Assembly (NCBI GenBank): GCA_028287395.1 | Contig: JAQBPR010000104.1 | Coordinates: 1-64,000 of the forward strand | Source: Bacilli bacterium | GTDB taxonomy: Bacteria > Bacillota > Bacilli > Paenibacillales > NBRC-103111 | DNA length: 64,000 nt | Reading direction: 5' to 3' | Shown here: piece by piece, positions 6,160 to 60,342 of the stretch | How the letters are laid out: the number at the start of each line of letters is the position of its first letter | How positions within the stretch are numbered: position 1 is the stretch's first letter | Program-made: the position numbers and the translations under genes | Notes under the pieces: generated by a model | Told to the model about the DNA's origin: nothing | Databases searched by the model: none | Seen by the model: only the letters and a program-made list of their open reading frames with translations

Positions 6160-6181
6160 ATTAAAATAGATAAGATATATA

Positions 6182-6220
6182 CTTACGATGTCTGCTTGTG
6201 AAAACAAGCTCTTGGATGTG
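6182..6220 (+). promoter_or_regulatory. CTTACGATG-hairpin leader element, copy 1
   Basis: CTTACGATG at 6182-6190 is followed by GCTTGT-gaaa-ACAAGC (6194-6209), a 6-bp stem with a 4-nt loop, and then a weak ribosome binding site GGATGTGAT before the TTG start of yicC. The same arrangement precedes remA and gpsA. The function is unknown; a 5' UTR or promoter element is the simplest reading. Confidence 0.6.
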
Positions 6221-6227
6221 ATAGCTC

Positions 6228-7109
6228 TTGATTCAAAGTATGACAGGTTTCGGACAAGCGATCCAAACCAATGAAGGTTACCGGCTGCAAGTTGAATTGA
6301 AATCAGTGAATCATCGTTTTCTGGAGATGAATATTCGCCTACCGCGTGAATGGATACGCTTAGAGGACGTGTTAAAGCAAAAGATTCGTTCTGTAGTGCA
6401 TCGAGGGAAGGTCGACGTTTTTGTCAATATTTATCGCGAGACGCTGGTCGATCAAAAGGTTATTCTTGATTGGTCGCTTGCAGAAGCTTACTTTAATGCG
6501 GCTCAGCAGTTAAGAGCTAAATTCGGCTTACCAGATACGTTTTCGATCCAAGATTTGCTGCATATTCCTGATTTAATCACGCTTTCTGATCAGCCTGACG
6601 AAGCAAATCCTGCGATACAGGATTCCTTACTTGCCTGTACGGAAAACGCTTTGCGCGAATTGCTTTTTATGCGAGACGCGGAAGGGAAACATTTACACGC
6701 AGATTTGATGTTGAGATTACAAGTATTGAAGTCTTTGCATCAATCTATGCAGGTATTGGCTCCTAAGGTGGTCGAGCAATATAAAATAAAATTGCAAACA
6801 CGAATCCAGGAAATGCTTGAAGGAAAGCCGCTGGATGAATATCGCATCTTGCAAGAGGCAGCGATTTATGCGGATCGTTCGAATATTGACGAAGAGCTAA
6901 CACGACTTGATAGTCATTTTCAACAATTTACTCGACTGCTTGTTCACGAAGATCCTTCGGGGCGAAAGCTGGATTTTTTACTACAGGAAATGAACCGAGA
7001 AGTAAACACAATTGGCTCTAAAGCGAATCATACTGATTTGCTCAATGATGTAGTCGAGATGAAGGCGGAATTGGAAAAAATGCGTGAGCAAGTTCAAAAT
7101 ATACAATAA
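6228..7109 (+). CDS. yicC: YicC/YloC-family endoribonuclease
   Basis: A 293-residue protein of the YicC family, whose members are endoribonucleases involved in mRNA or small-RNA turnover. It begins MIQSMTGFGQ, the family's hallmark N-terminus. The YicC-like N-terminal domain covers about residues 1-155 and the DUF1732 C-terminal domain about 207-293, including EEAAIYADRSNIDEELTRL-type conserved sequence and the NREVNTIGSK motif. The start is a TTG with only a modest SD (GGATGTGAT), and a CTTACGATG-hairpin leader lies just before it. remA follows 163 bp later, separated by a palindromic repeat and a second leader. Confidence 0.92.
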   Translation: MIQSMTGFGQAIQTNEGYRLQVELKSVNHRFLEMNIRLPREWIRLEDVLKQKIRSVVHRGKVDVFVNIYRETLVDQKVILDWSLAEAYFNAAQQLRAKFGLPDTFSIQDLLHIPDLITLSDQPDEANPAIQDSLLACTENALRELLFMRDAEGKHLHADLMLRLQVLKSLHQSMQVLAPKVVEQYKIKLQTRIQEMLEGKPLDEYRILQEAAIYADRSNIDEELTRLDSHFQQFTRLLVHEDPSGRKLDFLLQEMNREVNTIGSKANHTDLLNDVVEMKAELEKMREQVQNIQ

Positions 7110-7191
7110 GAGTGTGTTCAAAAAATGGCGAAATGGAGTAATGGGTGTGCTTATTCATTACGCAACATAGCTATACTTTTTGAACAGACTC
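7110..7191 (+). repeat. 82-bp palindromic MITE-like element, full copy
   Basis: The element starts at the base after the yicC stop. Its ends are inverted repeats: GAGTGTGTTCAAAAA at the left and TTTTTGAACAGACTC at the right, 14 of 15 bases complementary. The right half (TTCATTACGCAACATAGC and on through TTTTTGAAC) recurs at 28240-28275. It carries no coding potential. The size and ends fit a non-autonomous mobile or REP-like element, but no parent transposase is in the window. Confidence 0.65.
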
Positions 7192-7226
7192 AATAAGGAT
7201 AATTTTCTAGTGAAACACAGTATATG

Positions 7227-7265
7227 CTTACGATGCTAGCTTGCCACAGCAAGCTTATAGGGGGA
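7227..7265 (+). promoter_or_regulatory. CTTACGATG-hairpin leader element, copy 2
   Basis: CTTACGATG at 7227-7235, then AGCTTGC-caca-GCAAGCT (7238-7255), a perfect 7-bp stem with a 4-nt loop, then TATAGGGGG as the ribosome binding site of remA. The arrangement matches the copies before yicC and gpsA. Confidence 0.65.
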
Positions 7266-7272
7266 CATTCAG

Positions 7273-7533
7273 ATGGCTATTAAATTAATTAATATTGGTT
7301 TCGGGAATATTGTTTCCGCGAATCGCATCATATCTATTGTTAGTCCGGAATCTGCTCCGATCAAAAGAATAATTCAGGAAGCGCGCGATCGCCATATGTT
7401 GATTGACGCTACCTATGGTCGACGCACTCGAGCCGTTATTATTACCGATAGCGATCATGTTATTTTGTCTGCTGTACAACCAGAGACGGTTGCGCATCGA
7501 CTTTCCAACAAGGAAGATGATCATGACGAATAA
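7273..7533 (+). CDS. remA: Extracellular matrix regulator RemA (DUF370)
   Basis: An 86-residue DNA-binding protein that activates biofilm matrix and osmoprotection genes in B. subtilis. The N-terminus [17 protein letters not shown] and the central basic stretch [15 protein letters not shown] are typical. Length and position directly before gmk match the family. Its stop lies inside gmk, overlapping by 11 nt, so the two are probably co-translated. The ribosome binding site (AGGGGG) forms the end of the CTTACGATG leader, whose hairpin might limit access to it. Confidence 0.93.
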
Positions 7534-35793: not shown

Positions 35794-37616
35794 TGTTAAT
35801 ATTAAAAAGTATCGTAGTCAAGCTTTGGATGACCATCATTGCACTTGTTGCTGTCGTGCTGCTCATTCTTGGCTTATTTTTATTTCAATATATTAATACC
35901 AGCTTTCCCAAATCCAACGATCAGTCAAGCAGTCTGAAGGATCTTGCAAGCAAAGTCGCTATCCAAGCCGCTCAACATTATAATGAAGAATCGTTCCTTT
36001 CTACAATGAATGATCTTCTAAGTCCGCAGGACGCGGGAATGATTTTGCTTGAACGTAAATCAGGGGCGCTTAATATTGATTTAACCACTTCATTGTTTCT
36101 GAGCAAGGATGAAAAAATGGCGATTGGCGACGTTTTTACCCCAAATGAGCTTGAAACAGCTTTTTCCGGGGGCCTTGTCGATAAACGTAAAGGCGATTAT
36201 TTGTTCGTTGCGGTTCCGATTAAATCCAAAGATAAGCAAAATGCAGTTATATCCCGAATTATTATTATCCATCAGTCCCAAAAATCTGTTGAAAACACGC
36301 AAACCTATGTAAAAAAATTGTTTGTGCTTGTGTCCTTTATTGGTTTTTTGTTGACAACCTTTTTTGCCTTTTTTCTGATTACACGGATTACTAAACCGCT
36401 GCAGCAATTGAAAAAAGCCGCCGATTTAATCACATTAGGGGAGTTCGGCAGTCGTGTGCCCATTGTTTCTAAGGATGAATTAGGTGAATTGGCACAAACA
36501 TTTAATCATATGGGAGAACGATTGGAAGAAACGATTAAAGATTTAAATCATGAAAAAGAAAATTTATCGAGCGTTTTGCGAAGTATGGCGGATGCAGTCA
36601 TTTCCTTTGATGTCGAGGGGAACGTCATCTTTACCAATCCTCATGGAGAGAAAATTATCGCTAATTGGCGTGATATTCAATGGAACACATTGCATAACGA
36701 TGATGATTTTAGTCAAAGGATGAATTCTTCGCCGCATATCCCTGAACCATTGCAGCAATTGTTTGCTAATGTGGTTGAAGATACAACAGAAATCACCTCT
36801 AAACTTCATGTTCATAACGGAGTATGGTCGATTGTTATGGCTCCTTTATATTCACGTGAATTAGTGCGTGGAGCCGTTGCTGTTTTGCGTGATGTAACAG
36901 AGGAACACCGTCTTGAGAAGCTCCGTAAAGATTTCGTTGCTAACGTATCGCATGAACTGCGTACTCCTTTGTCCATGCTGCAAGGGTACAGTGAGGCTTT
37001 GCTCGATGATATCGCTGCTTCCCCAGAGGAACGGACGGAGCTAGCCCAAGTGATCTATGATGAATCTCTGCGAATGGGGAGATTGGTTAAAGATCTTCTG
37101 GACTTGGCTCGGATGGAAGCAGGGCACATGGAACTCCATTTCCGTCCGGTACAGCTCAACGCATTATTGAAAAGAGTGCATCGTAAGTTTAGCGTGCTCT
37201 GTAAGGAACATGAGTTACAGCTATTTATGGAATGTACGGAGCAAGACATTATACTGCCGCACGCAGACGAAGATCGCTTAGAGCAAGTGCTAACAAATTT
37301 GCTTGATAATGCCATACGTCATTCCTCACCTGCTGAGCAAATTACGATGAGAATGGTATTGCAGAACTCTCAAGAGGGGCAGTCTATTTTGATTGAAATT
37401 GAAGATCAAGGTCAAGGCATTCCAACTGGGGATCTGCCCTTCATATTCGAGCGCTTCTATAAAGCTGACAAAGCGCGTACACGCGGTGTAGCCACCGGAA
37501 CAGGTCTAGGCCTAGCCATTGTTAAAAATATCGTAGAAGCGCATCAAGGCACTGTACAAGTGAGGAGTCATGTTGGAAAAGGAACTACTTTTTCCATTGT
37601 ATTTCCATTAAAATAA
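35793..37616 (+). CDS. resE: Sensor histidine kinase ResE
   Basis: A 607-residue membrane kinase paired with ResD. The order is a transmembrane helix (about 8-30), an extracytoplasmic sensing domain, a second helix (about 170-195), HAMP (about 195-250), PAS (about 255-365), then HisKA with VSHELRTPLSML (phospho-His about 387) and HATPase with DNAIRHSS, EDQGQGIP and GTGLGLAI. The GTG start overlaps the resD stop. A strong terminator follows. sigX, which follows resE in B. subtilis, is absent here. Confidence 0.94.
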   Translation: MLILKSIVVKLWMTIIALVAVVLLILGLFLFQYINTSFPKSNDQSSSLKDLASKVAIQAAQHYNEESFLSTMNDLLSPQDAGMILLERKSGALNIDLTTSLFLSKDEKMAIGDVFTPNELETAFSGGLVDKRKGDYLFVAVPIKSKDKQNAVISRIIIIHQSQKSVENTQTYVKKLFVLVSFIGFLLTTFFAFFLITRITKPLQQLKKAADLITLGEFGSRVPIVSKDELGELAQTFNHMGERLEETIKDLNHEKENLSSVLRSMADAVISFDVEGNVIFTNPHGEKIIANWRDIQWNTLHNDDDFSQRMNSSPHIPEPLQQLFANVVEDTTEITSKLHVHNGVWSIVMAPLYSRELVRGAVAVLRDVTEEHRLEKLRKDFVANVSHELRTPLSMLQGYSEALLDDIAASPEERTELAQVIYDESLRMGRLVKDLLDLARMEAGHMELHFRPVQLNALLKRVHRKFSVLCKEHELQLFMECTEQDIILPHADEDRLEQVLTNLLDNAIRHSSPAEQITMRMVLQNSQEGQSILIEIEDQGQGIPTGDLPFIFERFYKADKARTRGVATGTGLGLAIVKNIVEAHQGTVQVRSHVGKGTTFSIVFPLK

Positions 37617-39414: not shown

Positions 39415-39740
39415 GAAAAAAAAACCCCAATCCCCATACGTGTGCCGTATAAAGGGACGAGAGTTGACTTCGTGGTACCACCCTAATTCGCTGCTTGTTT
39501 TACACAAGCAACCTCATTTGGTCAATTTATGACCTAGAAGATAACGGTCTCTTACCGATTGCATCTACGTCTCGAAATGAACATTCCTACGTTACAATAA
39601 GAATGGTGTTTCCATCGTTCAATGCAATGACTCCGAAATGCTCCACATTCGACCAACCGTCGATTCACACCCTACATCGACTCTCTGAAGGCGTCCAAAT
39701 GCTTGGTTCCATCATCGTATTTATTCGTTATATGAACTTT
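39415..39740 (-). promoter_or_regulatory. T-box riboswitch (probably serine) upstream of serA
   Basis: The minus strand carries the T-box sequence AGGGTGGTACCACG (39471-39484). It is followed by a terminator hairpin (CCC...ATACG - gcaca - CGTAT...GGGG) ending in a T run at about 39419-39426. At the 5' end the stem I motif AGAGAGTCGATG is at 39676-39687. In the distal side of stem I, GGAGCATTTCGG offers AGC (39640-39642, minus strand) as a serine specifier, matching serA. The specifier was chosen by eye; ATT and TTC are nearby alternatives. This fills the >300-base gap between serA and the rhodanese gene. Confidence 0.92.
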
Positions 39741-45586: not shown

Positions 45587-45614
45587 TTTTAAAATATTTC
45601 ATCATGCTTTAAGT

Positions 45615-45656
45615 AACAAAAATCCTGCCACGAGTAATCGCGGCAGGATTTTTGTT
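45615..45656 (+). terminator. Intrinsic terminator after the oxidoreductase operon
   Basis: AACAAAAATCCTGCC - acgagtaatcgc - GGCAGGATTTTTGTT. The stem has a GC-rich core and T-rich end. Confidence 0.9.
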
Positions 45657-45700
45657 GTGAATTTTTTTGCTTCTCAGCTTTACGAAAACTTTTACCTCAG

Positions 45701-45747
45701 TTGAAAATGAGTTTCTTGAATTGACGAAGGGGGAAACTCATTTTCAA
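45701..45747. repeat. Perfect 15-bp inverted repeat
   Basis: TTGAAAATGAGTTTC (45701-45715) and GAAACTCATTTTCAA (45733-45747), separated by 17 nt. It lies between the oxidoreductase terminator and the 3' end of the convergent deacetylase gene. There is no T run on either strand directly after it, so it is not a standard terminator. The rest of this 287-nt gap shows nothing else. Confidence 0.7.
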
Positions 45748-45873
45748 AGTCGGCACGTAAACTTTCCAAACACACCTATTACTTCACTTCGCCATTTTTT
45801 GAACAAAGTTAAAAGTTTTGCATTTGTAAAACTCGCTTCGAAAGCATACTTTCATACAAAACAACCGTTAAAC

Positions 45874-59246: not shown

Positions 59247-59254
59247 TTAGAATG

Positions 59255-59296
59255 CTTACGATGCAAGTTTTCCTAAAGGAAAACTTTTAGGAGGGG
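59255..59296 (+). promoter_or_regulatory. CTTACGATG-hairpin leader element, copy 3
   Basis: CTTACGATG at 59255-59263, then AAGTTTTCC - taaa - GGAAAACTT (59265-59286), a perfect 9-bp stem, and two bases later AGGAGGGG, the ribosome binding site of gpsA. It is the cleanest of the three copies. Confidence 0.68.
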
Positions 59297-59304
59297 TTTG
59301 AAGG

Positions 59305-60342
59305 ATGCGAGTAAAAAAAGCAGCCGTCCTTGTCGCAGGAAGCTGGGGAACCGCACTGGCTTCATTATTAATAGATAACCATAATGAAGTTATGGTTTGG
59401 TCCCGTAATTCTTCTGAAGTGGATGATATTAATCATCATCATCGCAATAGTCGATTTTTCAAAGAGGTTGCTTTATCACCGAAGCTTCGAGCTACATTAT
59501 CGATGGAAGAAGCAGTTGCGGGTGCAGATGCAATCATATTAGCAGCACCTTCAACTGCAATGCGGGAAGTTTGTGTCCAGCTGAGACCGCTATTGAACAC
59601 AGTCGCTGCGAAAGAAACGCTTATTGTCCATGTCGCTAAAGGTTTCGAAGCTGAATCTATGAAGCGAATGACGACAGTTATTGCTGAAGAACTACCTGAA
59701 TATAATGCCAATAAAATCGTTGTCCTTTCGGGTCCTAGTCATGCTGAAGAAGTTATTTTACACGGTCCAACAACCGTTGTTGTAGCATCTGGAGACGTTA
59801 AAGCAGCTGAAGCAGCACAGGATTTACTCATCAATGCTTATTTTCGTGTTTATACAAATCCGGATGTAATTGGCGTTGAAGTGGGCGGTGCATTAAAAAA
59901 TATTATTGCTTTGGGAGCTGGCTTAACTGAAGGACTTGGCTTTGGCGATAATGCCAAAGCAGCGCTAATAACACGAGGTTTGGCAGAAATAACTCGGCTT
60001 GGAGTTAAGATGGGTGCCAATCCGCTTACTTTTGCAGGTTTAGCAGGAATTGGCGATTTGGTAGTTACCTGTACCAGTAAGCATAGTCGGAATTGGCGTG
60101 CCGGGTATATGCTGGGTCAAGGGAAAGATTTAAATGAAGTACTGCAAAGTATGGGCATGGTTGTAGAAGGTGTGAAAACAACGAAGGCAGCATACGAGCT
60201 TGCTCGTCAATATGAAGTCTCTATGCCAATCACAGATGCGTTGTTTAATGTTCTATTTGCGGGAAAAACCCCAAGAGAAGCGGTCGGAGATTTAATGGGG
60301 CGTGTAAAAACGCATGAAATCGAGGAAATCGCCGGATCTTGA
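59305..60342 (+). CDS. gpsA: NAD(P)H-dependent glycerol-3-phosphate dehydrogenase
   Basis: Reduces dihydroxyacetone phosphate to sn-glycerol-3-P for phospholipid synthesis. Conserved parts: the N-terminal Rossmann motif, VAKGFE, LSGPSHAEEV, the catalytic-lysine region GGALKNIIALGAGL, and GIGDLVVTC. The first glycine of the usual GAGSWGTAL is valine here (VLVAGSWGTAL), which may alter nucleotide binding. Length 345 is normal. The SD AGGAGGGG sits in the CTTACGATG leader. spoVIF follows after 88 nt. Confidence 0.94.
   Translation: MRVKKAAVLVAGSWGTALASLLIDNHNEVMVWSRNSSEVDDINHHHRNSRFFKEVALSPKLRATLSMEEAVAGADAIILAAPSTAMREVCVQLRPLLNTVAAKETLIVHVAKGFEAESMKRMTTVIAEELPEYNANKIVVLSGPSHAEEVILHGPTTVVVASGDVKAAEAAQDLLINAYFRVYTNPDVIGVEVGGALKNIIALGAGLTEGLGFGDNAKAALITRGLAEITRLGVKMGANPLTFAGLAGIGDLVVTCTSKHSRNWRAGYMLGQGKDLNEVLQSMGMVVEGVKTTKAAYELARQYEVSMPITDALFNVLFAGKTPREAVGDLMGRVKTHEIEEIAGS

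Follow-up and report, generated by a model that had tools for sequence, protein, structure and literature searches.

A recurrent motif-and-hairpin unit before Shine-Dalgarno sequences in Paenibacillus-like bacteria: a possible RNA element at the 5' boundaries of functional RNA segments

What is the short leader that precedes yicC, remA and gpsA alike? These genes lie in a 64,000-nucleotide stretch of contig JAQBPR010000104.1 from a Bacilli bacterium (here called the window; the draft genome has 4.56 Mb in 268 contigs). An earlier note, made from the letters of the window, had reported CTTACGATG at 6182, 7227 and 59255, followed each time by a perfect 6-7 bp stem and then by the ribosome binding site. 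Reading the sequence directly bears out all three occurrences of the motif, each on the + strand. The stem length holds for yicC and remA and not for gpsA, where the stem is 8-9 bp (Table 1). The yicC copy is the weakest of the three window leaders under the unit model R1, and it is followed by a weak Shine-Dalgarno (SD) sequence (TTGGATGTG) and a TTG start. The window holds one more exact copy of CTTACGATG, at 37179 (- strand), which has no unit around it and scores 7.3 bits with R1, at chance level.

Table 1. Hairpin units, SD sequences and flanking genes in the window, and units located before 5S rRNA in two other genomes.
Feature	Location	Strand	Description	Score or basis
yicC unit	6179..6209 (R1 match 6179-6210)	+	ATACTTACGATG, TCT, stem GCTTGT/ACAAGC, loop GAAA; degenerate	R1 15.8 bits, E 0.004
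yicC/yloC-like gene, 3' of the first unit	6228..7109	+	TTG start; presumed name, from family knowledge	ORF
remA unit	7224..7255	+	ATGCTTACGATG, CT, stem AGCTTGC/GCAAGCT, loop CACA	R1 33.1 bits, E 1.2e-8 (copy outside the R1 training set)
remA SD, GGGGG	7260..7264	+	4 nt 3' of hairpin	sequence
remA	7273..7533	+		ORF; Pfam RemA-like 3.8e-38
Unit without SD, adjoining MITE-like remnant	45814..45847	-		R1 30.9 bits, E 5.9e-8
gpsA unit	59252..59285	+	ATGCTTACGATG, CA, stem AGTTTTCC/GGAAAACT, loop TAAA	R1 56.4 bits, not independent of training (copy inside the R1 training set)
gpsA SD, AGGAGG	59289..59294	+	3 nt 3' of hairpin	sequence
gpsA	59305..60342	+		ORF; Pfam NAD_Gly3P_dh
G100 pre-5S units	L258, L268, L417-L420, L425, L426			
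G098 pre-5S unit	L450			

The first clue is that the motif is abundant far beyond chance. The 9-mer CTTACGATG occurs 65 times in the whole draft genome against 19 for its reversed control, and exact ATGCTTACGAWG occurs 50 times where arithmetic on a uniform composition gives about 1.1. A pattern search of this genome and its relatives, which the earlier note had proposed, found the unit with one mismatch allowed in 94 of the 105 genomes of the bacterial family, at 0 to about 250 matches per genome; the reversed controls gave close to none. The unit is also present in a second family of the same order, and only background is seen in other orders of the class. The unit model finds 87 matches in genome G013, which belongs to the same genus as the window's genome, and 134 in G100. 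Tens to more than 100 unrelated genes in Paenibacillus-like bacteria carry a preceding unit. The original observation is confirmed, on a far larger scale than was first noted.

The unit begins with TGCTTACGAWG, followed by 2 nt, a hairpin (usually AGTTTTnn, a small loop and nnAAAACT) and YTTAG or YTAAG running into the SD sequence GGAGG. At the RNA level this is a 6-9 bp stem with single-stranded UGCUUACGAWG on its 5' side. Clusters consist of one unit (99), two (59), three (21) or four (11), with a maximum of seven. The arrays have a period of about 37-43 nt; their internal units mostly end in AG with the next unit directly after, and the last unit runs into the SD. Tandem growth with decayed 5' copies is seen, and AG likewise tends to stand at the end of the sequence that precedes the first unit. 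A small ORF starting at the ATG of the motif can be rejected as an explanation, for the observed loop lengths of 3, 4, 5 and 7 nt break the frame and that ATG has no SD.

Is the hairpin itself under selection? The earlier note had suggested so on the grounds that the stems differ in sequence while pairing is kept. A covariance model, as it had recommended, was built from 28 copies of equal length because varying loops misaligned the 3' arms in a MAFFT alignment. In the model alignment of 126 matches, 99.6% of the cells are paired, and 129 cells carry double changes versus 34 in the shuffled controls and at most 11 in the helix-slid ones. Because this alignment is fitted to the model, the test was repeated on sites picked solely by the exact 11-nt motif. 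Here 57 of 114 left arms other than AGTTTT are perfectly complementary to the right arm of the same site, versus a mean of 6.1 (maximum 14) when arms are exchanged. The accC leader was located by gene and not by the element, and its SD-proximal hairpin is kept in 10 of the 12 readable orthologues of one genus, with several stem sequences and mostly 0-2 changes in the motif. Model-fitted and unfitted tests alike strongly support the interpretation that the stems covary and that RNA structure is under selection.

What might this structure do? One suggestion of the earlier note was a thermosensor. Such an RNA, or another kind of switch, would bury the SD in an alternative hairpin. The gpsA leader lends itself to this idea, with an alternative 12-bp hairpin predicted at 59264-59296 that would cover its own SD. 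However, the trend across 177 loci is the opposite, with SD-unit pairing of 0.27 for real units versus 0.40 for shuffled ones (p ~1e-9). The SD-covering fold predicted for gpsA is not general for the unit family. By these predictions the unit reduces SD pairing instead of promoting it, and a thermosensor is very unlikely.

Where does the unit lie? In two complete genomes, 55 of the 63 unit clusters lie directly 5' of a same-strand ORF start. Across many genomes, 160 of 193 gene-associated clusters have the start codon 14-18 nt 3' of the hairpin, with a GGAGG consensus in between. A hairpin just before the SD, seen by the earlier note in the three window copies, is a general arrangement. Where no ORF start follows, the clusters are mostly units internal to an array, copies carried by MITEs in the window's genome, units at 5S rRNA genes, and a single site that apparently lies between convergent genes. 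The last of these, an exception to the rule, is found at about 470-500 of locus L434, where a unit lies 3' of a phnD-like gene and no ORF start follows.

Could the unit simply be a promoter or transcription-factor site, with TATGCT as the -10 element and the hairpin in the 5' UTR? TATACT and TATGCT do resemble a -10 element, and A/T-rich sequence lies upstream; the earlier note had seen a TATAT shared by two copies. Among the 193 gene-associated clusters, however, TATAT is not a general feature, and there is neither a -35/-10 pair nor a spacing signal upstream (positions -50 to -25 hold at most 0.05 bit). Units are also found within operons and between 23S and 5S rRNA genes, and their stems carry compensatory changes. 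We therefore regard this explanation as highly improbable.

The units inside operons deserve a closer look. They lie between ruvA and ruvB, accB and accC, atpG and atpD, and plsY and gpsA. This is the layout associated with selective RNA processing and stabilization, namely a stem-loop between cistrons that adjoins the SD of the downstream gene. In one genus, units also lie directly before 5S rRNA. In G100, eight 23S-5S spacers carry a unit whose hairpin stops 5-6 nt short of the mature 5S rRNA, and three hairpin sequences are represented among them. In G098, one of the three sites examined has a unit before 5S rRNA. The 5S genes of nine other genomes, including G013 of the same genus (up to three sites each), have none, and a universal pre-5S element as the origin of the unit was rejected for this reason. 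The 5S sites have neither an SD nor a start codon. For this reason, and because units also occur within operons, translation alone cannot account for the unit.

This bears on the possibility that UGCUUACGAWG beside the hairpin is the binding site of a global translational regulator (a cold-shock protein, S1, CsrA, a KH-domain protein or an sRNA). It would adjust 30S loading and bind cooperatively where units stand in tandem. Such a site would fit the retention of an 11-nt single-stranded motif in hundreds of copies, the placement of the hairpin edge some 15 nt before the start codon and the existence of arrays; the TAACTGA repeats of Beggiatoaceae have been read in the same way (PMC4679880). 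However, the pre-5S units have no start codon to act on, the genes 3' of units share no common function and form no coherent regulon, and no candidate factor or complementary sRNA came to light. We consider a regulator of this kind unlikely, if less so than a promoter or a thermosensor, and count it as one of the two serious rivals of the reading we prefer.

Does any one gene depend on its unit? Genes that recurrently bear units across species are gpsA, atpG, hslU, asp23, pgk, ruvB, accC and nusB, some of which we take to be so named from our own reading of the proteins. At remA the unit is not conserved: it is present at 3 of the 31 loci examined and absent in most relatives. Occupancy is 7 of 30 loci at gpsA. 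At ruvB it is about 4 of 13 in a single genus, where near relatives have clean empty sites. The accC unit is kept in most of the same genus. Since occupancy is unconserved at most genes, it seems that no single gene needs the unit.

Presence and absence between close relatives, as at ruvB and gpsA, is what might be expected of a mobile sequence. What if the unit is a palindromic DNA repeat of REP-like type whose spread is directed to AG^GAGG? In this scenario its adjacency to the SD and its sense orientation would come from the target and not from a function. The tandem growth with decay at the 5' end and the AG before the first unit would fit, and REPs, too, are palindromes of 20-40 nt that bear a conserved unpaired tag on the 5' side and occur in many copies per genome (PMC3733652). 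However, REPs are found mostly 3' of coding regions (PMC3733652), whereas units lie upstream of genes in a single orientation. The GTAG/CGTC foot tag of REPs is not found in the units, whose conserved 5' part is TGCTTACGAWG, and the 5S sites are not SDs. Mobilisation by a REP/RAYT system was rejected, as the Y1 transposase (PF01797) is absent from the unit-rich G013 and G100 and from G101, G053 and G043, and Y1 loci in other genomes do not have units on both flanks. The hairpins themselves provide a further argument. The probability that two are the same is 0.014-0.053 between loci within a genome versus 0.011-0.033 between genomes, which means that they vary as much in the first case as in the second. 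They mostly differ between the loci of one genome, unlike the 19 further, near-identical copies that the window's genome holds inside a MITE-like element. Differing hairpins beside a motif that stays suggest upkeep at each site. This argues against the gene-associated units having spread recently by copy and paste, although the argument from locus diversity is weakened because the units were selected through their own motif. On balance a REP-like origin is doubtful, though it ranks beside the regulator as a main rival.

Our preferred reading, which we hold tentatively and at a little under even confidence, is that the unit, once transcribed, works as a cis-acting RNA element. It would mark the 5' limit of a functional RNA segment and serve to process or protect what lies downstream. 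This reading is based on the motif, the compensatory stem changes, the fixed distance to the SD and start codon, the sense orientation, the arrays, and the operon and pre-5S sites. Single-stranded UGCUUACGAWG would be recognised by a putative factor that acts on RNA. The likeliest candidate is an endonuclease that cuts near the motif, for instance RNase Y, or else a binding protein. RNase Y may be the natural suspect; it cuts single-stranded RNA near secondary structure (PMC10311766). The SD-adjacent hairpin would then shield the resulting 5' end against 5'-3' decay and leave the SD free, and the stability and yield of the downstream cistron could be set separately from those of the upstream cistron. 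Tandem arrays might provide redundancy or graded strength.

A bolder version of the boundary reading is that there is one general post-transcriptional system throughout the order. A single RNA-acting factor would recognise UGCUUACGAWG and the hairpin at tens to hundreds of cistron starts, and before 5S rRNA in some species, to define and stabilise RNA segments within operons. Units would be gained and lost gene by gene, like mobile RNA punctuation. This is possible but rather less probable than the boundary role itself. The unit would be among the most abundant structured cis-RNA elements in an order of industrial and agricultural use, situated at essential and housekeeping genes and yet belonging to no named family. 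Close relatives differ naturally in the presence and copy number of units, so the effect is directly testable, and the unit could be a ready-made part for tuning genes inside operons.

Is anything like this already known? The earlier note knew of no named element of this form, and that still stands for Rfam 15 and for open-licence papers, among which no published description of the unit was found. At the gathering score or above, or E at most 1, the sole Rfam 15 match in the window is a T-box leader at 39450-39724 (- strand, 102.5 bits), and the unit is unmatched. With the same E limit, a search of 15 loci that bear units returned only a c-di-AMP riboswitch, distant from the units. The aprE and ermC leaders of Bacillus combine a 5' stabiliser hairpin with a strong SD near the 5' end, which resembles the unit. 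However, they concern single genes, share no motif and are not in tandem.

In the cip-cel operon of the Gram-positive Ruminiclostridium cellulolyticum, intercistronic stem-loops govern cleavage and how stable the downstream segment is, and an added upstream stem-loop raised the half-life of a reporter from 5.3 to 45.3 min (PMC10311766). The cut-site sequences there are unconserved and belong to one operon, whereas the present case, known from sequence alone, involves a conserved motif and hairpin before many unrelated genes throughout an order. The TAACTGA repeats of Beggiatoaceae are short, tandem, located just 5' of many unrelated start codons and presumed to act post-transcriptionally (PMC4679880). 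However, they are structureless heptamers, with an SD in only about 10% of those intergenic regions, whereas the unit differs in sequence and has a conserved hairpin and a strong SD. The combination of unpaired motif, covarying hairpin, arrays, SD distance, pre-5S sites and scale fits none of the known systems compared, although its parts are familiar in kind.

MITE-like sequences are also present in the window. The gap between yicC and remA contains a short element of this type at 7110-7191, with inverted ends GAGTGTGTTCAAAAA / TTTTTGAACAGACTC, and its longer relatives elsewhere in the genome hold two same-strand hairpin units each. A partial MITE-like sequence at 45600-45860 (- strand) adjoins the hairpin unit that lacks an SD.
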